A stretch of 64,000 nucleotides of DNA from Candidatus Desulfopertinax cowenii (GCA_001899445.1 MPOA01000002.1:124001-188000), one strand, 5' to 3'. Shown: positions 15,423 to 62,369, counted from the stretch's first letter. Program-made: numbers and translations. The notes: generated by a model from the letters alone, not told the origin.

Positions 15423-16256
15423 TTGCGTTTAGAGGATTCGCGCCCGGTGATTTACATTATTTCCGACTCGATCGGGGAAACGGCCGAGTTGGTAGCCCGG
15501 GCGGCCGCTAGCCAGTTTGACCACGGCCAGGTGGAGATCAGGCGGGTACCGTACTTGACGGAGCCCGAGGACGTCCGCGAGGTCGTGGAGGAGGCCAGCG
15601 GTTCCCCGAGCATCATCGTGTTCACCCTAGTGCTCCCCGGGCTGCGCGAGGCGCTGCTCCGGGAGGCCGAAGCCCGGAACATCCAGGCCGTGGACATTAT
15701 GGGTCCGGTTATGCAGGCCCTTTCCTCCGTTACCAGCGGCGCGCCGCGCCTGGAGCCTGGCCTGATGCGCAAGGTGGACGAGGAATACTTCCGCCGGGTA
15801 GAGGCCATCGAATTCGCGGTCAAGTACGACGACGGCAAGGACCCCCGGGGCATCGTCCAGGCCGACCTGGTGGTGTTGGGCGTCTCCCGCACGGGCAAGA
15901 CTCCGCTGAGTATGTACCTGGCGCATAAGCGGCTCAAGGTGGCCAACATTCCCCTGGTTCCCGAGGTGGCGCCGCCGGAGGAAATCTTCTCCCTGCCGCC
16001 GCACCGGCTGATCGGGCTAAACATTGACGCGCAGCAGCTCGTCGGCATCCGGCGGGAGCGGCTGAAAGCGCTTGGCCTGCCACCGGACGCTGGCTACGCC
16101 CAGAGTGAACGGGTACTGAAGGAACTGGCCTACGCTCGAAAAATCTTTCAACGCGCGGGCGCCTCGGTGATCGACGTCACCAATAAGGCGGTGGAAGAGA
16201 CAGCGGGCAAGGTGCTGGAGATCTACTACAAAGGCGAACGTTACCGGTTTGAATAG
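15423..16256 (+). CDS. PPDK/PPS regulatory protein (bifunctional kinase/phosphorylase, DUF299)
   Basis: Phosphorylates and dephosphorylates a threonine of pyruvate phosphate dikinase or PEP synthetase to switch it off or on. It has 277 residues. Typical features are [22 protein letters not shown], the P-loop-like [20 protein letters not shown] and [15 protein letters not shown]. The TTG start at 15423 follows AAAGGGGG; 17 bases separate it from ccpN. Its dikinase target is not in the window. Confidence 0.93.
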
Positions 16257-16341
16257 GGACGCCCGGGGGAGTCGTTCCCGACGAAGCAATCGTCGCTCAG
16301 CCGAGGATGAAAATAAGGGTTTGTTTTTTAGGGGTGGACGT

Positions 16342-16926
16342 TTGGCGGAACTGCGACTGTTCTGGGCCCTGAATCTGCCGGGAGAGCTGAAAACGAAACT
16401 CGCGGGGTTTCAGGCCGAACTGAAAAAAATATCTCCGGATGCGAAATGGGTGGAGCAGGAAAATCTGCACCTGACGGTGAAGTTTCTTGGTGCGGTGGAA
16501 AGTTCCAGGGTACCGGCGCTGACCCAGGCGGTGGCGAAAAGCGTGTCCGGACTGGCGCCGTTCCGGTTGGAATTGGCGGGCTGGGGTACCTTCGGGCGCC
16601 CGGCGCGCGTGCTCTGGACCGGTGTAACCGGGGATCTCGCGGATTTGCAGGAGCTGCGGACCCGGGTGGAGGCGGCCCTCGTGCCGTTGGGTTTTGCGGC
16701 GGAAAAGAAACCCTTTTCGCCGCACCTGACGCTGGCGCGGTTCCGGTCGTCCCGGAACCTGGTAGCGCTGCGGGAGCAGGCCAGCGCCCTGGCGGCCGAA
16801 CAGGGTCTCTGGGGCGAGTTCATGGTGGACCGGATCGACCTGATGCGGAGCACCCTTACCCGGCAGGGACCGGTTTACCGGGTGATTTCAGCGGTTGACC
16901 TGACGGATAATCCGGGTCAGCTTTAA
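16342..16926 (+). CDS. thpR: RNA 2',3'-cyclic phosphodiesterase (2H family)
   Basis: 2H phosphoesterase of about 194 residues that opens 2',3'-cyclic phosphate ends of RNA (formerly called 2'-5' RNA ligase). It begins ELRLFWALNLPGELKTKLA and carries the two HxTx motifs LHLTVKFLG and PHLTLARFR about 85 residues apart. TTG 16342 lies 6 bases behind GGGGTGG and gives the normal start; the upstream-extended frame is arginine-rich and unlikely. It sits between the ccpN pair and dnaG, where Bacillus has no such gene. Confidence 0.9.
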   Translation: MAELRLFWALNLPGELKTKLAGFQAELKKISPDAKWVEQENLHLTVKFLGAVESSRVPALTQAVAKSVSGLAPFRLELAGWGTFGRPARVLWTGVTGDLADLQELRTRVEAALVPLGFAAEKKPFSPHLTLARFRSSRNLVALREQASALAAEQGLWGEFMVDRIDLMRSTLTRQGPVYRVISAVDLTDNPGQL

Positions 16927-17003
16927 ACTCCGGGGATCGGTACTTTTGCGTTACCTGCGAGCTTATAGCTTATAGTATTTAAAGGTTTTATAAGAAAAGA
17001 GGG

Positions 17004-42817: not shown

Positions 42818-43642
42818 GTGAAAACCATCGTGATTGCCGAAATCGGGGAGAACCACTTGGGCGACCTGGAACGGGCCAAGGAGATGGTCGCCGCGGCCGC
42901 GGCGGCGGGAGCGGACTACGTCAAATTCCAGTCCTACCGCGGGGCCGACGTGGCCGACGATGACCCGGAGAAGGAGTGGTTTTCCAGGGTGGAACTGTCC
43001 GACCGGGATCACTACGTGTTGCGGGAACACGCCCGCAAGAACGGCGTCGAGTTCCTGAGTTCGCCCTTCACCCTGGAAAGGGCCCGTTTTCTCTGCGAGG
43101 GTCTGGGTCTGACCCGGATCAAGATCGCCTCCTCCGAGATGTTAAATTGCGAACTTCTGGACTACGTGAACACCCGTGCGGAGACCGTTTTTCTGTCGAC
43201 CGGAATGTCCACCCTGGAGGAGGTGGATCGGGCGCTGTCCCGCCTGGGGAAAGTGCCGGAACGTTACGTGCTGCACTGCGTGACCCAGTACCCGGCCAAG
43301 CCCGGGGAACTGAACCTGCGGGTCATCCGAACCCTGCAGGCGGTGTTCGAGGACTGCCGGGCGGGTTACTCCGACCACAGCCTGGGCATCGATGCCTGCC
43401 TGGCGGCGGTGGCCTGTGGGGCACGGGTGATCGAGAAGCATTTCACCCTCGACAAAGGACTGCCGGGAACCGATCACGTGCTGTCGGTTACCCCGGAGGA
43501 ACTGCGGGAACTGATCACCCGGATCCGGCACCTGGAAACCATGCTGGGCAGCCCGGTCAAGCAGCCGACGCCGCGCGAACTGGCGATTAGGGAGTCGGTG
43601 CGGGGGCGATTTGCGAAGGGAGCGGCGGTGAGAGCGGAATGA
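42818..43642 (+). CDS. NeuB-family nonulosonate synthase without SAF domain
   Basis: PEP-dependent condensing enzyme family (sialic, legionaminic or pseudaminic acid synthase). TIM barrel: TIVIAEIGENHLGDLERAKE, ADYVKFQSY, KIASSEMLNCELLDYV, STGMSTLEEVDRAL, YSDHSLGIDACLAAVACGA and IEKHFTLDKGLPGTDHVLS. It has 274 residues while NeuB proteins usually have about 340-350; the C-terminal SAF (antifreeze-like) domain, which closes the partner's active site, is missing. GTG 42818 start. Adjacent to a NeuA-like cytidylyltransferase, so the product is probably CMP-activated. Confidence 0.87.
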   Translation: MKTIVIAEIGENHLGDLERAKEMVAAAAAAGADYVKFQSYRGADVADDDPEKEWFSRVELSDRDHYVLREHARKNGVEFLSSPFTLERARFLCEGLGLTRIKIASSEMLNCELLDYVNTRAETVFLSTGMSTLEEVDRALSRLGKVPERYVLHCVTQYPAKPGELNLRVIRTLQAVFEDCRAGYSDHSLGIDACLAAVACGARVIEKHFTLDKGLPGTDHVLSVTPEELRELITRIRHLETMLGSPVKQPTPRELAIRESVRGRFAKGAAVRAE

Positions 43643-44289
43643 TCCTTGGGATCACCCCCGCCCGCGGGGGCAGCAAGGGACTGCACCGTAAGAACCTGCG
43701 CCCGCTGTGCGGCAAGCCGTTGCTGGCCTGGACCATTGAAGCGGCCCGGGAAGCCCGCTTGCTGGACGAATACGTGGTCTCCACCGAGGACCGGGAGATT
43801 GCCCGGGTGGCCCGGCAGTACGGCGCGCGGGTGCTGCCCCGCCCGCCGGAACTGGCGGGAGACGGGACCGCTACGCTGGCTGTGCTGCAGCACGTGCTGG
43901 CGCTTCGGCCGCAGGCGACCGTGCTGGTGTTGCTGCAGGCCACCTCACCCATACGGGCCCCGGGCCTGATCGACGCCTGTGTACGGCGCTTCCTGGAGAC
44001 GGGGGCCGATTCTCTGGCCACCGGGTTTATCTGCAAGCACCGGGAGTACGGCACCGATCAGCGGCGGCGGCAGGACGTGCCGGGTTTCTTCTGTGACGAC
44101 GGCAACGTGTACGTGATGAAGGCGGCCCTGATCCGGGAAGGGGACCGGTTCGGCCGGGTCCGGGAAAAAGTGGTGATAGACAAGAAACAAAACTTGGACA
44201 TCGACGACGAATTCGACTTCTGGCTGGCCGAACAGGTACTGCGAGGGCACGGCCGCTGTCACCAAGGGGAGGCGCGGGCAGGTGAGTGA
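43639..44289 (+). CDS. NeuA-like CMP-sugar cytidylyltransferase
   Basis: 216 residues. ITPARGGSKGLHRKNLRPLC is the CTP-binding signature; QATSPIRAPGLIDAC, DDGNVYVMKAAL and IDIDDEFDFWLAE follow in the family order. No C-terminal esterase domain. It overlaps the upstream synthase by 4 bases and the next gene by 8, which links it to the NeuB product. Confidence 0.9.
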   Translation: MILGITPARGGSKGLHRKNLRPLCGKPLLAWTIEAAREARLLDEYVVSTEDREIARVARQYGARVLPRPPELAGDGTATLAVLQHVLALRPQATVLVLLQATSPIRAPGLIDACVRRFLETGADSLATGFICKHREYGTDQRRRQDVPGFFCDDGNVYVMKAALIREGDRFGRVREKVVIDKKQNLDIDDEFDFWLAEQVLRGHGRCHQGEARAGE

Positions 44290-49357: not shown

Positions 49358-49371
49358 CGGGGGGTAAGCCG

Positions 49372-51324
49372 ATGGAACGCGTGCTGATTGCTGTTGACCG
49401 ACCGGACTACAGGCTGGACTGTGGTCGGAGAGAATCGCTGTTGTCTTCGCCGGGGGATATCATATATTTCTTGCCTCTCGCCTTTTCTTCCGACACTTTC
49501 GAGGGCTACGCATCGTGTCTCGACCTGGAAACGACGGTACATCGCATTGACCTTGCCGGGGACATCGTGGAACGCACGGATGGATTCCGGGAATTTTGGC
49601 GGCGGGAGCTTTACCGGCTCGCTAACGCGACGGTGAGAGGCAAGCCCCTGGTTGAATGGCTACACTTGGCCCGTATGGACGTCTCCTACTGGTGGCTCAC
49701 TCTAATGGCCGAAAGGAATCCGCTCAAGTCGGCCTCTCTGGACCGGGGGTTTGTCGCTTACACGGTTACCCGATTTCTGGAACGGTACGACATTTCCCTC
49801 CTGATCCTGGGGATCGAGGAACCGGTGGTGCGCCGTTACCTGGAAATTTGGTGCCGGAAACGGGGGACCGCCTGCCGGTTACTATGGAACCACCGGGACC
49901 GGCGTCGGAGGCGGGGGCGGCACGGCTACCCGGACCTTTATTTCGTCGCCCGAGAGGCACTGCTCGGATACGGATTGCGGTTTCTACAGTGGGCGACCGC
50001 TCCCAAACCCCGTGGTGACCGCCGGGTGCGGACTTGCATCGTGACCTATTTTCCTCATTTCCAGGAATCCGAAGCCGCGCGGGGACGCTACCTGGACAAT
50101 TACTTTGGACCGCTGGGGAAACGGTTCGCTCCGGATACCTTGGTGTGGCTTGGTCTCCCGGTCCACAAACCGGGGTATGCCGCCGGCAGATTGGCGTGGT
50201 ACCGGAGTGCCTTCCGGAAACAGGGGCACCAAATCGTCCTGGCCCATGAACTGCTGACCCCACCCGCTTTCCTCCAGGTTTTGGGGCAATACCTGCGGCT
50301 GGCGGCTCGTGGGCGGCAGGCGTGGAAGGAATTGTCGGGGATGGGGGCCGCGCCCGTAGTTGCTTTGGTTGGGGAGGACTGGAAGAAGTCTTTGCTCGGT
50401 TGGACACTCGTGGAGAACCTGTTTCTGTTTGAGTCCTTCGGGAATCTGTTTCGGAAATACCCGAACCTGGAACGCATCCTATACCCGTGTGAGATGCAGG
50501 CCTGGGAAAAGGTGCTGATTGCGGCCCGGAACAAGCACAACCCGGCCTGTAAAATCATAGGTTATCAGCATACATTTGTTCCCGATATGTACCTTCATTA
50601 CCACCCGCATCCATTTGAGCTAAGGGATGCGGGAAACGGGAAACACAGCTTGCCCCTGCCGGACCGGCTGCTGGTGAACAGCCGGGCGTCTTTCGACCTG
50701 CTGACCGACAGCGGCTGGGACGCGGACTTGCTGGCCGTTGTGGAGGCGTTGCGCTACCACCACGTCCGTGGGTACCTGGACCAAGGTTCCCGGGAGAAAC
50801 GTGACCAGGTGGTGGTCTTAGGGAGCATCGTCGATCGTGAAAACCAGCGGTTGTTTCGCTTGGTCCAGGAGGCGCTCGACGGGATGGCGGGATTCGAACT
50901 CCTGATCAAGCCGCATCCGTTCCGGAGGGTGGAACAGTATCTTGAGCCGCGGGTGCTCCGGAGCAATGGTTGGCGGGTGACCGATGAACCCATCGACCGG
51001 TGCCTGGCGGAAGCCAAGGTGGCTGTGGTCGGAAGTTCCGGGGCCGCGGTTGATGCTCTGGCCTTGGGGTGTCGGGTACTGCTGGTGCACTTCCCGGACG
51101 CCATCAACGCCTCGGTATTGCGTAAGGTGAATTCGCCGGCGGTGTGGCACGTAACCAGCGCCCGGGAACTCCGCGCGGCCGTGGCCCGTGCTCTCCGGGA
51201 GTACGATCCGGAACTGCAACATCAGGGAATGAATCTGGTCCGCTACTTGCTGGCGCTGCCGGAGAATCCGGAAAGCACGGAGCTTTTTTACCGTGAAATC
51301 GGTGGGCTCGGGGATGGTGAGTGA
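49372..51324 (+). CDS. surface carbohydrate biosynthesis protein (TIGR04326-like)
   Basis: 650 residues from ATG 49372 behind GGGGGGTAA. The C-terminal half has KIIGYQHTFVPDMYLHYHPH, ADLLAVVEALRYHH, LLIKPHPFRRVEQYLEP and AKVAVVGSSGAAVDALALGC, a pattern I associate with the LIC13510-type surface-carbohydrate protein family and with capsule-type transferases. The N-half (LLILGIEEPVVRRYLEIWCR) is less clear. It probably transfers or assembles a sugar on the outer glycan. Confidence 0.68.
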   Translation: MERVLIAVDRPDYRLDCGRRESLLSSPGDIIYFLPLAFSSDTFEGYASCLDLETTVHRIDLAGDIVERTDGFREFWRRELYRLANATVRGKPLVEWLHLARMDVSYWWLTLMAERNPLKSASLDRGFVAYTVTRFLERYDISLLILGIEEPVVRRYLEIWCRKRGTACRLLWNHRDRRRRRGRHGYPDLYFVAREALLGYGLRFLQWATAPKPRGDRRVRTCIVTYFPHFQESEAARGRYLDNYFGPLGKRFAPDTLVWLGLPVHKPGYAAGRLAWYRSAFRKQGHQIVLAHELLTPPAFLQVLGQYLRLAARGRQAWKELSGMGAAPVVALVGEDWKKSLLGWTLVENLFLFESFGNLFRKYPNLERILYPCEMQAWEKVLIAARNKHNPACKIIGYQHTFVPDMYLHYHPHPFELRDAGNGKHSLPLPDRLLVNSRASFDLLTDSGWDADLLAVVEALRYHHVRGYLDQGSREKRDQVVVLGSIVDRENQRLFRLVQEALDGMAGFELLIKPHPFRRVEQYLEPRVLRSNGWRVTDEPIDRCLAEAKVAVVGSSGAAVDALALGCRVLLVHFPDAINASVLRKVNSPAVWHVTSARELRAAVARALREYDPELQHQGMNLVRYLLALPENPESTELFYREIGGLGDGE

Positions 51325-52109
51325 TGTCTGTTACGGCATTCAAGCGACGGCTGCTTGAAAACCGGGTTTCCGTGGGAAGTTGGATAACCCTCGGTCATCC
51401 CGCGGTGGCCGAGATCATGGCCGCGGCCGGCTTTGACTGGTTGGCGATCGATATGGAACACAGCGTGATCACCCTGGACGTGGCCCAACAGTTGATACAG
51501 TGCATTGAATCGCGGGGTGTGGTGCCGCTGGTCCGGCTTCCCGAGAACAACGCCACCACCATTAAGCGGGTGATGGATGCCGGGGCGGCGGGGGTGATCG
51601 TGCCTATGGTGAACGGTCCGGAGGACGCGACCCGCGCAGTACGGGCCACCAAGTACCCGCCGCGAGGCTGTCGGGGCCTTGGTATCGCCCGGGCCCAGGG
51701 CTACGGGGCGTCGGTCCTGGAGTACGTGCAACGGATCGAAGAGAATGCAGTGGTCATTGTGCAAATCGAAGACGTGCGGGCCGTAAGCCAAATTGACCTG
51801 GTTTTCCAGGTACCCGGAATCGACGGTTATCTCATCGGCCCCTTTGACCTCTCCGCTTCGATGGGGTACGCCGGGCAGCTGGATCACCCCGAGGTGGCGG
51901 CGGCGGTGGAAAAGGTTTTCCAGAGCGGGCGGCGACACGGGATTTGTGCGGGTTTCCACGTCATTCCCCCTTCAACGGCCGAAATAAAAAAGCGATTTGA
52001 TCAGGGTTACCGATTCCTGGCCTACAGCCTGGATGTCCTGTTCCTGGGGGAAACGTGTCGGAATGGTCTGGAAACGTTGCGGGCGATACGGGAGGCAAAG
52101 ACACCATGA
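51324..52109 (+). CDS. HpcH/HpaI-family class II aldolase
   Basis: 261 residues. RVSVGSWITLGHPAVAEIMA, FDWLAIDMEHSVITLDV, PLVRLPENNATTIKRVMDAG, YPPRGCRGLGIAR and VIVQIEDVRAV (metal Glu/Asp) form the family pattern. Members cleave or form 2-keto-3-deoxy acids from pyruvate and an aldehyde with a divalent metal. Between a surface-carbohydrate gene and a KdsB-like cytidylyltransferase it more likely works in the synthetic direction to make a 3-deoxy-2-ulosonic acid. That is inference. Overlaps the cytidylyltransferase by 4 bases. Confidence 0.9.
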   Translation: MSVTAFKRRLLENRVSVGSWITLGHPAVAEIMAAAGFDWLAIDMEHSVITLDVAQQLIQCIESRGVVPLVRLPENNATTIKRVMDAGAAGVIVPMVNGPEDATRAVRATKYPPRGCRGLGIARAQGYGASVLEYVQRIEENAVVIVQIEDVRAVSQIDLVFQVPGIDGYLIGPFDLSASMGYAGQLDHPEVAAAVEKVFQSGRRHGICAGFHVIPPSTAEIKKRFDQGYRFLAYSLDVLFLGETCRNGLETLRAIREAKTP

Positions 52110-52873
52110 AAATAATCGGCGTAATTCCGGCCCGAATGGAATCATCCCGGTTTCCGGGCAAACCGCTGGCCTTGATCAACGGTATACCGATGATCGAGCA
52201 CGTGCTGCGGCGGGCCGAACTGTGCCGCCTCCTCGATGAGGTATTAGTGGCGACCTGTGATCGGGAAATCGCGAACCATGTTGCCGGCCTCGGGCGCCGG
52301 GTGGTAATGACTTCCGCCAGCCACGAGCGCTGCGTCGACCGTGTGGCCGAGGCGGTTCGCCACCGGCCCGACGCCGGGGTGGTGGTGGTCATCCAGGGCG
52401 ACGAACCCATGCTGCGCCCGGAAATGATCGAGACCGCCCTGGAAGCCCTGATCCGCGACCGGTCGGTGCTCTGTGTTAACCTGATGGCCCCGGTCACCAG
52501 CCACGAGGAAACCACGGACCCGAACGTGGTTAAAGTGGTTGTTAATCAGGAGGGCCTGGCGCTTTACTTTTCCCGGGCGCCTATTCCTTACCGCCATACC
52601 GACACCGGTGACGGACCAGTTTACTTTAAGCAGGTGTGTGTCATGCCTTTTAGCCGCGAGATGCTGCTCACCTTTTCCCGCCTGCCGCCCACCCCCCTGG
52701 AAAGGTGGGAGTCGGTGGATATGCTGCGCGCCCTGGAGCACGGTTACCGGGTGCGGATGGTTGAAACCGGGTGGGAGACTTGGAGCGTGGACACGCCGGG
52801 CGACTTGGAAAGAGTGGCCGCCAGGATGGCGGATGACCCACTGGTCCGCCGGTACGGTGGAGGCGGCGTATGA
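52106..52873 (+). CDS. KdsB-like CMP-ulosonate cytidylyltransferase
   Basis: 255 residues. IIGVIPARMESSRFPGKPLA is the KdsB signature, with VLVATCDREIANHVAGLG, VVVVIQGDEPMLRPEMIETA, LYFSRAPIPYR and RWESVDMLRALEHG after it. Gram-positive genomes rarely carry kdsB; here no KdsA, KdsC or KdsD is in the window, so the substrate need not be Kdo. It probably activates the product of the adjacent aldolase. Confidence 0.9.
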   Translation: MKIIGVIPARMESSRFPGKPLALINGIPMIEHVLRRAELCRLLDEVLVATCDREIANHVAGLGRRVVMTSASHERCVDRVAEAVRHRPDAGVVVVIQGDEPMLRPEMIETALEALIRDRSVLCVNLMAPVTSHEETTDPNVVKVVVNQEGLALYFSRAPIPYRHTDTGDGPVYFKQVCVMPFSREMLLTFSRLPPTPLERWESVDMLRALEHGYRVRMVETGWETWSVDTPGDLERVAARMADDPLVRRYGGGGV

Positions 52874-53688
52874 TTCTCGGGCGACTGGTGGACCGGTTGT
52901 GTATTCATTCCTTGCGGGCCGCGGTTTGTTCCCAGGGTCTGGCTCCCATGTACGCCCGCTTGACACGGATCGTCCCGGATATCAGTGCCCAGTATACCGG
53001 CTTCAGCCTGAAAGCCCCCCATTTGCTGGTGAAGGTGCGGGCGCTGCACGCCTTTCAGGTGTCCCTCGTCATCGAGGCCTTGCGCCGCTTGGGGGCGGAT
53101 GAAGGCCGGACGGTAAGGGTGGTGGACATCGGGGATTCAGCGGGAACGCACATCACCTATCTGCGGGCATTGTTTCCACGGATCGAGGGATGGAGTGTCA
53201 ACCTAGACCGGGAAGCGGTGGCCCGGATCCGGAGCAAGGGCCTGCGGGCGATCCAGGCCCGGGCCGAAGACTTTTCCGCCTACCCGGTGAACGCGGAGAT
53301 TTTGATGTGTTTTCAGTTGCTGGAGCATCTATCCTGTCCGGTCGATTTTCTCAGGGCCCTTTCCAGCCGGTCGACCTGCCGCTTTTTGGTATTGACGGTA
53401 CCTTATCTGCATCGTAGCCGGGTTGGTCTGCACCAACTGCGCCGTCAGGAAAAAGTGGCCACGTCCGCTGAAAACACCCACATCTTTGAACTGTGCCCGG
53501 CTGACTGGGGCCTGTTGTTCCGGCACACCGGGTGGTCACCGGTCCACGAGGAAGTTTTTTGGCAGTACCCACGCACCGGTCCGTTGCGCTTGATGCGGTT
53601 TTACTGGGCCGGGCGGGATTTTGAGGGCTTTTACGGCGCCCTGCTCCAGCGGGATCAAACCTGGTCCGGGCTGTACCAGGATTGGTAG
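52870..53688 (+). CDS. putative SAM-dependent methyltransferase
   Basis: 272 residues, ATG overlapping the previous stop by 4 bases. Class I Rossmann pattern is weaker than usual: RVVDIGDSAGTHITYLRAL (SAM loop) and WSVNLDREAVARIRSKGLRA, then EILMCFQLLEHLSCPVDFL. It probably modifies the ulosonic acid or the glycan; not certain to be active. Confidence 0.68.
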   Translation: MILGRLVDRLCIHSLRAAVCSQGLAPMYARLTRIVPDISAQYTGFSLKAPHLLVKVRALHAFQVSLVIEALRRLGADEGRTVRVVDIGDSAGTHITYLRALFPRIEGWSVNLDREAVARIRSKGLRAIQARAEDFSAYPVNAEILMCFQLLEHLSCPVDFLRALSSRSTCRFLVLTVPYLHRSRVGLHQLRRQEKVATSAENTHIFELCPADWGLLFRHTGWSPVHEEVFWQYPRTGPLRLMRFYWAGRDFEGFYGALLQRDQTWSGLYQDW

Positions 53689-53702
53689 AAAGGGAGTACA
53701 GA

Positions 53703-54632
53703 TTGAAAATCTTGATTTCAACCAGTTTGTTCGGGTGTTACGACCCGCGACCGCTAGAAAGGTTGCGGGCGCAGGGTTGGAGCCTGGTCTTGAATCCCTA
53801 CGGCCGCCAGCTGACTGAACCGGAGGTCCTAGAGTTGCTGGCCGACTGTGACGGGATCATCGCCGGTACCGAGCCGCTGACCGCGCGGGTGCTGCGGGGA
53901 GGGAGGTACCTCAAGGTGATCTCCCGTTGCGGGACCGGATTGGATAACGTCGATCTGGAGACCGCCCGGAATCTGGGTATCCCGGTTATGCGTACCGCCG
54001 ACGCGCCGACCCAGGCGGTGGCCGAACTGACCCTTGGACTCATCCTGGATGGCCTGCGGGGCATCACCTGGCATGACCGGGTAATCAGGGCCGGAAGCTG
54101 GGAGAAATCCATGGGCCGCCTGCTAGCCGGCAAGACCCTGGGGCTCCTGGGGTTGGGGCGAATTGGGAAAAGGTTGGTGCAATTAACCCGGCCTTTCGGC
54201 CTGACTTACCTGGCCTGGGACCGGATGCCGGACGAAGAGTTCGCCCAAACCCACGGGACGGAGTACCGGGCGTTAGAAACCGTCCTTAGCGTAGCCGATA
54301 TTATCAGTTTGCACCTGTCCTATGAACCCACGTTGCATAAGCTCATTGGTGCCCGGGAATTAGCTCTGATGAAAAAAGAGGCTCTGCTGGTAAACACTGC
54401 CCGGGGGGAACTGGTGGACGAGGAGGCCCTATACCAGGTGCTGCGGCGACGCCAAATCGGCGGCGCGGCACTGGATACCTTTGCCCGGGAACCTTATACC
54501 GGCCCGCTGCGAAACCTGCCCAACGTGGTGCTGACCAGCCACATCGGTTCCTACGCCCGGGAGGTACGGGTGCGGATGGAAATGGAAGCGGTTGAAAACC
54601 TGATACGTGCCTTGACGGGGTTAAGAAAATGA
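53703..54632 (+). CDS. D-2-hydroxyacid dehydrogenase (phosphoglycerate-dehydrogenase-like)
   Basis: About 309 residues from TTG 53703 (site AAAGGGAG). Catalytic and NAD motifs: ISRCGTGLDNVDLETARNLG, GKTLGLLGLGRIGKRLVQLT, MKKEALLVNTARGELVDEEA and NVVLTSHIGSY (His). No ACT domain, so not SerA for serine synthesis; in a sugar cluster it may reduce or oxidise a keto-acid intermediate. Overlaps the epimerase by 4 bases. Confidence 0.9.
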   Translation: MKILISTSLFGCYDPRPLERLRAQGWSLVLNPYGRQLTEPEVLELLADCDGIIAGTEPLTARVLRGGRYLKVISRCGTGLDNVDLETARNLGIPVMRTADAPTQAVAELTLGLILDGLRGITWHDRVIRAGSWEKSMGRLLAGKTLGLLGLGRIGKRLVQLTRPFGLTYLAWDRMPDEEFAQTHGTEYRALETVLSVADIISLHLSYEPTLHKLIGARELALMKKEALLVNTARGELVDEEALYQVLRRRQIGGAALDTFAREPYTGPLRNLPNVVLTSHIGSYAREVRVRMEMEAVENLIRALTGLRK

Positions 54633-55525
54633 AAGTCGTCGTTTTTGGCGGGTCCGGCTTTGTGGGGAGCCACGTTGCCGACGCCCTGAGTGAAGCGGGG
54701 TACCGGGTGCTGGTTTTTGACCGGGTAGCCTCGCCCTACCTCCGGAATGATCAGGAGATGATGGTCGGGGACATCCTGGAGGCCGAAGCCGTTCGTCGGG
54801 CTGTGACCTGGGCCGAAGTCGTGTATCACTTCGCGGGAATCGCGGACCTGGACGACGCCTCCACCCGGCCGCTGGACACCGTCCAGCAAAACATCGCCGG
54901 AACGGTGCAGGTGCTGCAGGCCGCACTGGACGCTGGGGTAAGGCGGTTTGTTTACGCCAGTACGATTTACGTGTACAGCGACCTGGGCGGTTTTTACCGC
55001 TGCAGCAAACAGGCCGCTGAACTCTACATCGAGGAATACCACCGGAAATACGGGTTGGCCTACACCATTTTGCGGTTCGGCACCATTTACGGGCCCCGAG
55101 CGGACAACCGGAACAGCGTGTACCGTTACCTGCGGATGGCGCTGACCACGGGCCGGATTGACTGTCCGGGCACCGGTGAAGAGGTCCGGGAATACATCCA
55201 CGTTCTGGACGCTGCGCGTTTGAGCGTCCGGGTACTGGATCCGGAATTCGCCAACCAGCATGTCACCATCACCGGTCATCAACCCATGCGATTCTCCCAA
55301 ATGCTGGCGATGATCCGGGAAATCTTAGGCACCGGGGTCTCCATTCACTACCACCCGGCGGGGAGGAACGACCATTATTCCCTCACTCCCTATTCCTTCG
55401 TGCCCAAGCCGGGCAAAAAGCTGGTGAGCAACTGTTACGTCGACATGGGGCAGGGACTGGTAGAGTGCCTGCAGGAAATCTACCTGGACCTGCAGCGCGG
55501 TGGCGGAACCGGAGGTGGCCCATGA
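54629..55525 (+). CDS. NAD-dependent epimerase/dehydratase (SDR)
   Basis: 298 residues. VVVFGGSGFVGSHVADALSE (Rossmann), YASTIYVYSDLGGFYRCSKQ with YRCSK as Y-x3-K, and RFGTIYGPRADNRNSVYRYL. Sequence style matches the epimerase at 41144. Substrate unknown; part of the aldolase-KdsB module. Confidence 0.88.
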   Translation: MKVVVFGGSGFVGSHVADALSEAGYRVLVFDRVASPYLRNDQEMMVGDILEAEAVRRAVTWAEVVYHFAGIADLDDASTRPLDTVQQNIAGTVQVLQAALDAGVRRFVYASTIYVYSDLGGFYRCSKQAAELYIEEYHRKYGLAYTILRFGTIYGPRADNRNSVYRYLRMALTTGRIDCPGTGEEVREYIHVLDAARLSVRVLDPEFANQHVTITGHQPMRFSQMLAMIREILGTGVSIHYHPAGRNDHYSLTPYSFVPKPGKKLVSNCYVDMGQGLVECLQEIYLDLQRGGGTGGGP

Positions 55526-56193
55526 TTAGGGCGGTGCTGCTGGATTTCGACGGGGTTATCCTGGAATCGGTGGCCTACAAGACCCGGGCTTTTGAAGCCT
55601 TGTTCGCCGGTGAGGCGCCCGAGGTGCGGGAGGCCATTGTTCGGTATCACCTCCGGCACGGCGGCGTCTCCCGCTACGAAAAGTTCAGGCACATTTACGC
55701 CAACATTCTGGGGCGTCCGTTGCCCGCGGAACGTCTCGCGGCGTTGTCCCGCGATTTCTCCAGGCTCGTGGTCGACCAGGTGGCCGCGGCGGAATGGGTG
55801 CCTGGGGCGCGGCGCTTCATCAGGCGCAACCACCGGCGCCGCGACCTGTTCGTAGTGTCCGGCACACCGGGGGCCGAACTGCGCGCGATCGTGGCCCGCA
55901 GGGGGCTGGCGGCTTGTTTTCGGGGGATCTTCGGATCGCCGGACCCCAAGCCGGTCCTGATCCGGCGCATCCTGCGCAAAGGGTCGTACCGGCCGTCCGA
56001 AGCGGTGTTGGTGGGGGACGCGGAAACCGATTTGGATGCCGCCCGGGAAACCGGCATCTTTTTCGTCGCGCGCACGGGCCCCGTTTTCCGGGGTGGCGGC
56101 GGATTCCGTCTTCCCGATCTGCGTGCACTGGAAGCGGTCCTGAGGTGCCTGGACGAGGAAAGCGGGGAACCAGCCGGTGGAGACTGGGGGTGA
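55522..56193 (+). CDS. HAD-superfamily phosphatase
   Basis: 223 residues. Motif I LLDFDGVILESVAYK, motif II VVSGTP, motif III KP region (GSPDPKPVLIRRIL) and motif IV VLVGDAETDLDAARETG. Cap between motif I and II places it with beta-phosphoglucomutase-like phosphatases, unlike the cap-less KdsC. It could remove the phosphate from an ulosonate phosphate before activation by the KdsB-like enzyme. Confidence 0.9.
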   Translation: MIRAVLLDFDGVILESVAYKTRAFEALFAGEAPEVREAIVRYHLRHGGVSRYEKFRHIYANILGRPLPAERLAALSRDFSRLVVDQVAAAEWVPGARRFIRRNHRRRDLFVVSGTPGAELRAIVARRGLAACFRGIFGSPDPKPVLIRRILRKGSYRPSEAVLVGDAETDLDAARETGIFFVARTGPVFRGGGGFRLPDLRALEAVLRCLDEESGEPAGGDWG

Positions 56194-60705: not shown

Positions 60706-61560
60706 GTGAGGTGGGAACTGAAAAACGAGTTTGCGGTTATCTGGGGCGTATCTGCGATTCTGCTTGTAATTGCCGGCTTGACCGAACTGCAGATCCCGCG
60801 CGTTGTTTTGGGCCTTCCCTGTATCCTCCTGTTTCCCGGCTATGTCCTGGTAGCCGCCCTTTTCCCCGGCAAAAAGGGATTGAGCGGCGCCGAGCGGCTG
60901 GCGCTCAGTCTTGGTCTGAGCGTGGTGATCGTAACGCTGGGCGGTCTGATCCTGAATTACGGCTTGGGGATTTACCCGGTCACCGTGTTCGGTTACCTGT
61001 TCCTGTTCATCACCTGCCTATCGGTTTTGGGCTGGCACCGGCGCCGGCGGCTCCCGGCGGAAGAGCGCTTCTGCATCGTACTTGATCTTGACCCCAAATC
61101 GAGGATCAGCTCCCGTGCGGACCGGGTACTGGTGCTGGCCCTGGCCGGCGCCCTGCTCTTTGCGTCGGGTTCCCTGGCCTACGTGCTGTCTGCTCCCGCG
61201 GTGGGGGAAAGGTTCACGGAGTTTTACCTGTTGGACACTTCGGGGCGAGCCGAGAACTATCCCCGTGAAGTCCGGCCCGGAGAAGCCTGCCGCCTCATTC
61301 TGGGGATAGCCAACCACGAACACCGTGATGCGGTCTACCGGGTGAAATGCCTGGTAAACGGACATCTGGAATGGCGACTCGGTCCCCTGCGGCTGGCCCA
61401 CGGTGAACGGGTTGAGCGGCTGGTTTCCTTTACGTCCCGGTCCGAACCGGGGGAGATGCAGGTGGTTTTCTACCTGTACCGCGATGGCGAAACCGAACAC
61501 TTGCGGGCGTTGCACCTGTGGGTGAAGGTAGTCGAAGCCGAAAGCGAGGATGGTCTGTGA
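60706..61560 (+). CDS. DUF1616 membrane protein
   Basis: 284 residues. Four to five membrane helices in the N-terminal half (FAVIWGVSAILLVIAGLTEL, LGLPCILLFPGYVLVAALFP, ERLALSLGLSVVIVTLGGLI) with the DUF1616 signature FPGYVLVAALFPG and LERLALSLGLS-like loop, then an external beta-rich domain (about 165-280). Family of unknown role, common beside exosortase or polysaccharide genes. GTG start after AGGAGCAAGCC. Confidence 0.82.
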   Translation: MRWELKNEFAVIWGVSAILLVIAGLTELQIPRVVLGLPCILLFPGYVLVAALFPGKKGLSGAERLALSLGLSVVIVTLGGLILNYGLGIYPVTVFGYLFLFITCLSVLGWHRRRRLPAEERFCIVLDLDPKSRISSRADRVLVLALAGALLFASGSLAYVLSAPAVGERFTEFYLLDTSGRAENYPREVRPGEACRLILGIANHEHRDAVYRVKCLVNGHLEWRLGPLRLAHGERVERLVSFTSRSEPGEMQVVFYLYRDGETEHLRALHLWVKVVEAESEDGL

Positions 61561-62369
61561 GCTTCAACAAGGTTCAGAACCCGGGTGGGCCGTTTCCCGG
61601 AGGGCTGGACCGCTGCAGGTTTTCGGAATCCCTCGGGTGGTGGCTGTACGCCGGTGGATTGGCCGCCGCCGAAATCGTGGTCGGGTATGTTGACCCGGTG
61701 GCCGGGGTGCTGATCCACGCCGGTCTACTGGTTGTCCTGCTGGTGCACGCCGCCCACGCCGCGCGGCGGCAGCGGCATCTGCTCTACCTGGTGCTTACCA
61801 TCGCGCCCCTGATCCGCATCCTGAGCCTGGCCATTCCCATGGTCTTAATTTCCCCGTCACTGACCTACCTGGTCACCGGTTTGACCGTGTTGGTGGCCGC
61901 CGGGCCGGTGGTACGGGTGGGCGGTTTTACCCCTGGTGAGATCGGCTTGCGCTGGGGTTTCTGGCCCGTTCAGCTGCTGGTGGGCTTGAGCGGCATTCCG
62001 GTGGGAATCGCCGAGTACTACCTCCTGCGGTCTGAACCGCTGGTGGATGCGTTGCACTGGGGCGAGGTGCTGCTTCCGGCTTTGGTGCTCCTGGTCTGTA
62101 CGGGGTTCGTGGAGGAGTTTGTTTTCCGGGGGATGATGTTTCGGGCGGCCCGCAGGTACGCGAGCAGGTGGCACGCCCTGATTTACGTCAATGTCGTGTT
62201 CGCGGTCCTGCACATCACGCACCTGGTGCCGCTGGACGTTTTCTTCGTGTTCCTGGTGGGCGTGTACTTCACGGTGGTCGTCGTGCGGACCCGCTCGCTG
62301 TTCGGGGTGGCTCTAGCCCACGGCCTGGCCAACATTATGCTTTACATTGTTTGGCCGTTTTTCGTCTAG
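61557..62369 (+). CDS. CPBP-family intramembrane metalloprotease
   Basis: 270 residues, about eight membrane helices. Conserved motif 1 EEFVFRGMMFRAARR (EExxxR), motif 2 NVVFAVLHITHL (FxxxH), motif 3 LAHGLANIMLYIVW (HxxxN/B) of the CAAX/Abi protease family. GTG 61557 overlaps the previous stop by 4 bases. Possible role in processing a surface protein, not evident. Confidence 0.88.
   Translation: MSFNKVQNPGGPFPGGLDRCRFSESLGWWLYAGGLAAAEIVVGYVDPVAGVLIHAGLLVVLLVHAAHAARRQRHLLYLVLTIAPLIRILSLAIPMVLISPSLTYLVTGLTVLVAAGPVVRVGGFTPGEIGLRWGFWPVQLLVGLSGIPVGIAEYYLLRSEPLVDALHWGEVLLPALVLLVCTGFVEEFVFRGMMFRAARRYASRWHALIYVNVVFAVLHITHLVPLDVFFVFLVGVYFTVVVVRTRSLFGVALAHGLANIMLYIVWPFFV

Follow-up and report, generated by a model that had tools for sequence, protein, structure and literature searches.

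The window analysed here is 64,000 nt of Candidatus Desulfopertinax cowenii (GCA_001899445.1 MPOA01000002.1:124001-188000; positions are counted from the window start) and contains an array of overlapping genes in which an HpcH/HpaI aldolase is followed directly by a KdsB-like cytidylyltransferase. This cassette probably makes, by way of the aldolase, a cytidine monophosphate (CMP)-activated 2-ulosonate other than 3-deoxy-D-manno-octulosonate (Kdo). An earlier sequence-only reading of the window had proposed that a pyruvate-type aldolase may build the ulosonate, and this proposal, as a predicted chemistry, is now supported by the absence of the Kdo 8-phosphate synthase KdsA, by an adjacency specific to the aldolase clade and by a changed sugar pocket in the KdsB-like protein.

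All six overlapping genes of that reading, from the aldolase to the HAD phosphatase, are present on the + strand with successive overlaps of 4-7 bp, and hidden Markov model (HMM) calls agree with them, the methyltransferase match being weak. The array is nevertheless not confined to these six genes, as had been thought, and starts one gene earlier with a TIGR04326-like protein of 651-677 aa (49291 or 49369 to 51324), which shares 4 bp with the aldolase gene and should be counted as part of the array. Comparison with homologues indicated ATG 52106 as the likely start of the KdsB-like open reading frame (ORF), and ATG 55522 is the likely start of the HAD phosphatase. The array comprises:

49369..51324 (alternative start 49291), + strand: TIGR04326-like surface carbohydrate protein, GT-B-like, probable cassette glycosyltransferase (TIGR04326 match below cut-off; low-confidence model)
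51321..52109 (GTG start; ATG at 51324), + strand: HpcH/HpaI class II pyruvate aldolase of the cassette clade (PF03328, 128.5 bits; HpaI catalytic residues)
52106..52873, + strand: KdsB-type cytidylyltransferase with altered sugar pocket (PF02348, 160 bits; TIGR00466, 168.9 bits against a cut-off of 155.2; residue signature; separate clade)
52870..53688, + strand: putative S-adenosylmethionine (SAM) methyltransferase (Pfam Methyltransf_23, 21.2 bits, below cut-off)
53682..54632, + strand: D-2-hydroxyacid dehydrogenase, PGDH/GhrB-like (PF02826/PF00389; motifs)
54629..55525, + strand: extended SDR of the nucleotide-sugar epimerase/dehydratase type (PF01370, 148 bits; GGSGFVG and YRCSK motifs)
55522..56193, + strand: HAD-family phosphatase (PF00702/PF13419; DFDGV and GDAETD motifs)

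Linkage of the aldolase to a cytidylyltransferase

To follow the cassette across genomes, loci were gathered by aldolase sequence alone. Named genomes were scanned with a three-member aldolase alignment, which returned 80 loci at 49-57% identity, and the locus of genome G077 (46% identity) was added to give 81 loci that were characterized by gene calling and BLAST. A cytidylyltransferase was encoded on the aldolase strand within 6.5 kb in 78 of the 81 loci, most gaps being shorter than 100 bp, and was of KdsB type in 67 and of PseF/NeuA type in 11. The accessory genes recur around both types, with a 2-hydroxyacid dehydrogenase near the aldolase in 64/67 KdsB-type and 10/11 PseF/NeuA-type loci, an SDR in 59/67 and 7/11, and a HAD protein in 56/67 and 7/11, respectively. 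The hosts belong to 12 phylum-level groups, namely Bacillota, Chloroflexota, Pseudomonadota, Thermodesulfobacteriota, Myxococcota, Nitrospirota, Elusimicrobiota, Omnitrophota, Eiseniibacteriota, Nealsonbacteria, Hadarchaeota and Woesearchaeota, within an uneven sample in which 56 of the 67 KdsB-type loci are from Pseudomonadota, mostly Nitrosomonadaceae. Nothing describing the cassette came up in the literature, which was searched both for aldolase-KdsB pairings and for Nitrosomonas ulosonic acids.

Both of the interchangeable cytidylyltransferase subfamilies belong to families that activate 2-ulosonic acids, and their exchange within one slot therefore points to 2-ulosonate substrates. The possibility that cassettes devoid of KdsB lack an activating enzyme was discarded, a PseF/NeuA-type gene being present there.

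As a control, 30 HpcH aldolases were taken from a 299-genome sample of the phylum and a cytidylyltransferase was sought within 1.5 kb of each. Only the two members of the cassette clade, from the window and from genome G268, had one (2/30), and none was found beside the 28 more distant aldolases, which are up to 42% identical (0/28). Dozens of genomes thus keep the adjacency, and it is peculiar to this clade of aldolases. The control bears directly on the alternative that the aldolase simply serves catabolism and has glycan genes as neighbours by accident. Its family is mostly catabolic, and the window aldolase matches the NCBIfam equivalogs HpaI, GarL and RhmA, albeit below their cut-offs (200 vs 369, 191 vs 393-407 and 168 vs 441). 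With a cytidylyltransferase beside 78/81 clade members as against 0/28 other aldolases, and a linkage spanning bacteria and archaea, a chance neighbourhood was ruled out as the source of the pairing, and the catabolic explanation as a whole is strongly disfavoured and can be given hardly any credence.

Conserved features of the aldolase

The HpaI catalytic and metal residues D42, H45, R70, E149 and D175 are conserved in all 41 cassette aldolases compared, which are therefore predicted to act, like their family, as class II pyruvate aldolases. The cassette aldolases occupy one side of a tree branch (support 100/99) and share near-invariant positions specific to the clade, among them S20, T23, H26, S48, M85, M96 and Q126. 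The separation of this clade is partly built in, given that its members were picked by similarity; the linkage to a cytidylyltransferase is an independent result.

Altered sugar pocket of the cassette KdsB

The cassette KdsBs (CYTIDYLYLTRANSFERASE) clustered together, separate from housekeeping KdsBs, KpsU and Escherichia coli KdsB (tree support 100/100, branch 0.86). In E. coli numbering, residues R10, R15, K19, R78, Q98, D100, R157 and D235 are kept in 70/70 cassette KdsBs. These include the catalytic and metal residues expected of a CMP-Kdo synthetase (R10, K19, Q98, D100 and D235), with roles taken from PMC3149649 and PMC2901514. The Kdo substrate is bound by the C-terminal domain of KdsB (PMC3149649), and a secondary list of the active-site residues of Haemophilus influenzae KdsB (3DUV) gives K74, Q98, R157, H185, E214 and Q215 (PMC12058783). 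The last three were equated with H181, E210 and Q211 of the E. coli enzyme, since no other His and no other Glu-Gln pair is invariant in the region. All three are present in 12/12 housekeeping KdsBs and are replaced by Q, D and M in 70/70 cassette KdsBs, including the window protein, where they are Q176, D205 and M206 counted from ATG 52106. Additionally, G183, Y185, Y187, S74, G75 and T125 are altered in nearly all cassette KdsBs, and the housekeeping enzymes show little or no variation at G183, Y185, Y187 and S74. Kept catalytic residues together with a changed sugar pocket therefore fit an unusual ulosonate rather than Kdo, and from these sequences the cassette KdsB would perform the same chemistry on a different ulosonate.

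A pocket that differs from those of Kdo enzymes could also reflect activation of a substrate that is not an ulosonate, such as a phosphonate or a hydroxy acid, and nucleotidyltransferases can reportedly activate phosphonates (PMC6697681). No PEP (phosphoenolpyruvate) mutase-like domain was found among the scanned window proteins, a genome-wide search not having been made. Moreover, Q98, which contacts the sugar (PMC2901514), and R157, which appears in the Kdo-site list (PMC12058783), are kept in 70/70 sequences, and the PseF/NeuA-type replacements again point to 2-ulosonates, making such a substrate very improbable.

Absence of Kdo and lipid A genes

The window genome (G000; 1.78 Mb, 99.96% complete) encodes a single KdsB, the other matches to KdsB being a PseF-like gene and the NeuA of the window itself. 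The sequence-only reading had noted that KdsA is missing from the window and that a kdsA/kdsC set elsewhere in the genome that supplied this cytidylyltransferase would refute the proposal. KdsA was looked for genome-wide and was not found; KdsC and KdsD were not searched for at that scale. Only two PF00793 matches are present, and these were rejected as an alternative kdsA, both being 337-aa DAHP (3-deoxy-D-arabino-heptulosonate 7-phosphate) synthases within aromatic amino-acid operons. WaaA, LpxC and KdsA were not found in the window genome, G077 or G080. Across the whole class, KdsB occurs in 3/113 genomes and adjoins this aldolase in 3/3, and the Hadarchaeum and Nealsonbacteria genomes, in which KdsA was not found, hold the cassette KdsB only. 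With KdsA, WaaA and LpxC missing from the window genome, its orphan KdsB supports a non-Kdo route.

The same pattern extends to the Nitrosomonadaceae, where the cassette aldolase is present in 119/125 genomes and KdsA in 0/125. LpxC was found in 0/20 of the Nitrosomonadaceae genomes searched, the cassette KdsB is the sole KdsB in the four members searched for KdsB, and WaaA was not found in the four members tested for WaaA. Nitrosomonas europaea was noted by Opiyo et al. (PMC3087551) to retain only lpxK. The Nitrosomonadaceae (e.g. L034, 7018-10540) thus represent a diderm family without lipopolysaccharide (LPS) that has a conserved CMP-sugar cassette. Another proteobacterium with the cassette (L037) has both LpxC and KdsA.

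These gene contents could also be accommodated by a KdsA-independent synthesis of Kdo, in which the aldolase would join pyruvate to D-arabinose and the KdsB-like enzyme would make CMP-Kdo for a capsule or glycoprotein. The HMM score of the window protein lies above the KdsB equivalog cut-off, its closest solved structure is KpsU, the capsule CMP-Kdo synthetase, and genomes with the cassette KdsB as sole KdsB have no KdsA. This explanation does not account for the changes at H181, E210, Q211 and their neighbours in essentially all cassette KdsBs, nor for the several genomes with a canonical KdsA/KdsB pair that carry a cassette-type KdsB as a second copy, and neither the window genome nor the four Nitrosomonadaceae tested for it have WaaA. 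Kdo is therefore an unlikely product.

Relationship to the NeuB/NeuA pair

A separate NeuB/NeuA pair, which the sequence-only reading had placed at the same locus, is indeed encoded at 42818-43642 and 43639-44289, approximately 8 kb upstream of the cassette. The NeuB-like ORF (274 aa) gave a PF03102 match alone and seems to be without the C-terminal SAF domain; the NeuB homologue of L009, at 360 aa, is long enough to include one. Elsewhere in the window genome (contig C6, 352344-355727; L002), a PseB-like gene is paired with a PseF-like one, which suggests that another CMP-nonulosonic acid is made, perhaps for flagella.

The proximity of this pair, and the PGDH/GhrB-like character of the dehydrogenase, would suit an arrangement in which the aldolase and dehydrogenase supply a decoration (e.g. 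lactyl or glyceryl) or a precursor for the NeuB/NeuA nonulosonic acid, the KdsB-like enzyme activating a product made elsewhere. NeuB lies within 10 kb of the cassette aldolase in only 5/81 loci (L009, L026, L027, L051 and L060), however, and many hosts have no KdsA to feed KdsB, so that this arrangement is unlikely.

Accessory genes and candidate transferases

The catalytic Arg, Glu and His of the dehydrogenase are seen in NTARGELVD, FAREPY and TSHIGSY, respectively. The Protein Data Bank matches of the dehydrogenase and the SDR were too broad for naming substrates, and the KdsC model was not among the NCBIfam matches of the HAD phosphatase. The window methyltransferase occupies the slot of methyltransferase family MT2 of related cassettes, which is filled in L009, L026, L084 and L152. 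PF04199 'cyclases' and MptE-like proteins also recur in cassettes. L026 is without SDR and HAD genes and has a Gfo/Idh oxidoreductase, a GmhA-like SIS isomerase and an inositol-monophosphatase-like phosphatase; the KdsB-type cassette L084 has a Gfo/Idh oxidoreductase and a GmhA-like SIS isomerase together with a TIGR04425 AroB-like enzyme (15892-16977), an AroB-related putative sugar phosphate phospholyase. Such substitutions hint at what the cassette may require to make the aldehyde: an NAD-dependent sugar oxidoreductase and a phosphatase, joined in some cases by a sugar-phosphate isomerase.

The TIGR04326-like protein appears to be the best candidate for the cassette transferase. It matches TIGR04326 over nearly its full length at 203.6 bits, short of the curated cut-off of 250, and occurs in 2/398 sampled genomes of the phylum, the window genome and G268, both of which have the aldolase-KdsB pair. 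G268 is the only other genome of the aldolase sample with that pair, and its gene order is aldolase, KdsB, methyltransferase, 2-hydroxyacid dehydrogenase, cyclase, HAD, SDR and TIGR04326, the last lying directly after the SDR. An AlphaFold2 model of the window protein, of low confidence (mean predicted local distance difference test score 49), matched GT-B-fold proteins and is evidence for a GT-B-like fold at most. A conserved protein of 430-470 aa lies directly before the aldolase in several cassettes (L018 8599-9993, L008 684-2090, L076 5577-6878); the L018 copy had no match in Pfam or NCBIfam, and by eye the protein is loosely Maf/DUF115-like and a possible alternative transferase. The glycan island of the window has DUF1616 and Rce1-like CAAX protease genes (60706-62369) at its 3' end.

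Proposed pathway and comparison with known systems

In the proposed route to a non-Kdo ulosonate, the class II (metal-dependent) aldolase would join an aldehyde derived from a sugar to pyruvate or to a compound much like it (e.g. hydroxypyruvate), thereby replacing a PEP-dependent synthase of the KdsA or NeuB kind. The HAD phosphatase, SDR and 2-hydroxyacid dehydrogenase may perhaps prepare or modify the aldehyde or the donor. The KdsB-type enzyme would couple the resulting ulosonate to CMP, and a transferase, either the TIGR04326-like GT-B protein or one resembling it, would pass it to a surface glycan.

Several observations weigh against this route. HpcH/HpaI aldolases are familiar as catabolic enzymes, and the cassette aldolase could run in the cleavage direction. 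A 2-hydroxyacid dehydrogenase also adjoins 7/28 non-cassette HpcH aldolases (L125, L129, L130, L135, L139, L140 and L141), and the cassette aldolase-dehydrogenase pair may derive from an old catabolic pair that was recruited from catabolism. Three of the 81 loci have no close cytidylyltransferase: the contig of L014 ends where its relative L013 has the cytidylyltransferase gene, L048 has a KdsB approximately 6 kb away, and L051 has other NeuA-like genes instead. The window KdsB-like protein still exceeds the TIGR00466 equivalog cut-off, and the pocket argument is an alignment to published KdsB sites, not a solved complex of the cassette clade.

The CMP-activated sugars known to us are Kdo and the sialic/nonulosonic acids, all of them made from PEP by synthases dedicated to the task. 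The Kdo pathway (KdsD-KdsA-KdsC-KdsB, then WaaA or KpsC/KpsS) has in common with the cassette a KdsB-type CMP transfer, the catalytic and metal residues and a HAD phosphatase. It differs in that the window genome is without KdsA, WaaA and LpxC, a pyruvate aldolase takes the place of the PEP synthase, the cassette KdsB is changed at H181/E210/Q211 and, by HMM, the cassette HAD is a protein other than KdsC. Nonulosonic acid pathways (NeuB/LegI/PseI with NeuA/LegF/PseF) share the predicted CMP-2-ulosonate end product, and 11 cassette loci have a PseF/NeuA-like cytidylyltransferase, whereas the cassette, as most of its neighbourhoods, is without NeuB and the carbon chain would come from the pyruvate aldolase. 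The class II aldolases HpaI, GarL and RhmA/YfaU, whose family makes or cleaves 4-hydroxy-2-oxo acids, share PF03328 and the five catalytic and metal residues with the cassette aldolase, which in contrast forms a separate clade with its own signatures, is linked to CMP-sugar genes and scores below the equivalog cut-offs. Relative to the TIGR04326 surface carbohydrate proteins, named after Leptospira LIC13510, the window protein matches the model over nearly the full length and is GT-B-like but scores below the curated cut-off.

Many groups of bacteria and some of archaea carry this gene set, often without the usual Kdo pathway, and it therefore probably provides an undescribed acidic surface sugar, other than Kdo, by a different chemical route. 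If so, CMP-activated ulosonic sugars could also be made through a conserved cassette fed by an aldolase. Such a cassette would explain many 'KdsB' annotations in archaea, monoderm bacteria and other organisms unable to make Kdo, and would caution against taking kdsB as a marker for LPS. For the ammonia-oxidising Nitrosomonadaceae, which are without a lipid A pathway (PMC3087551), the cassette is a concrete candidate for the source of a surface sugar. The chances seem to us evenly balanced that an undescribed class of aldolase-built CMP-ulosonic acids is both a widespread surface sugar of Kdo-less bacteria and some archaea and a core envelope component of the LPS-less Nitrosomonadaceae.

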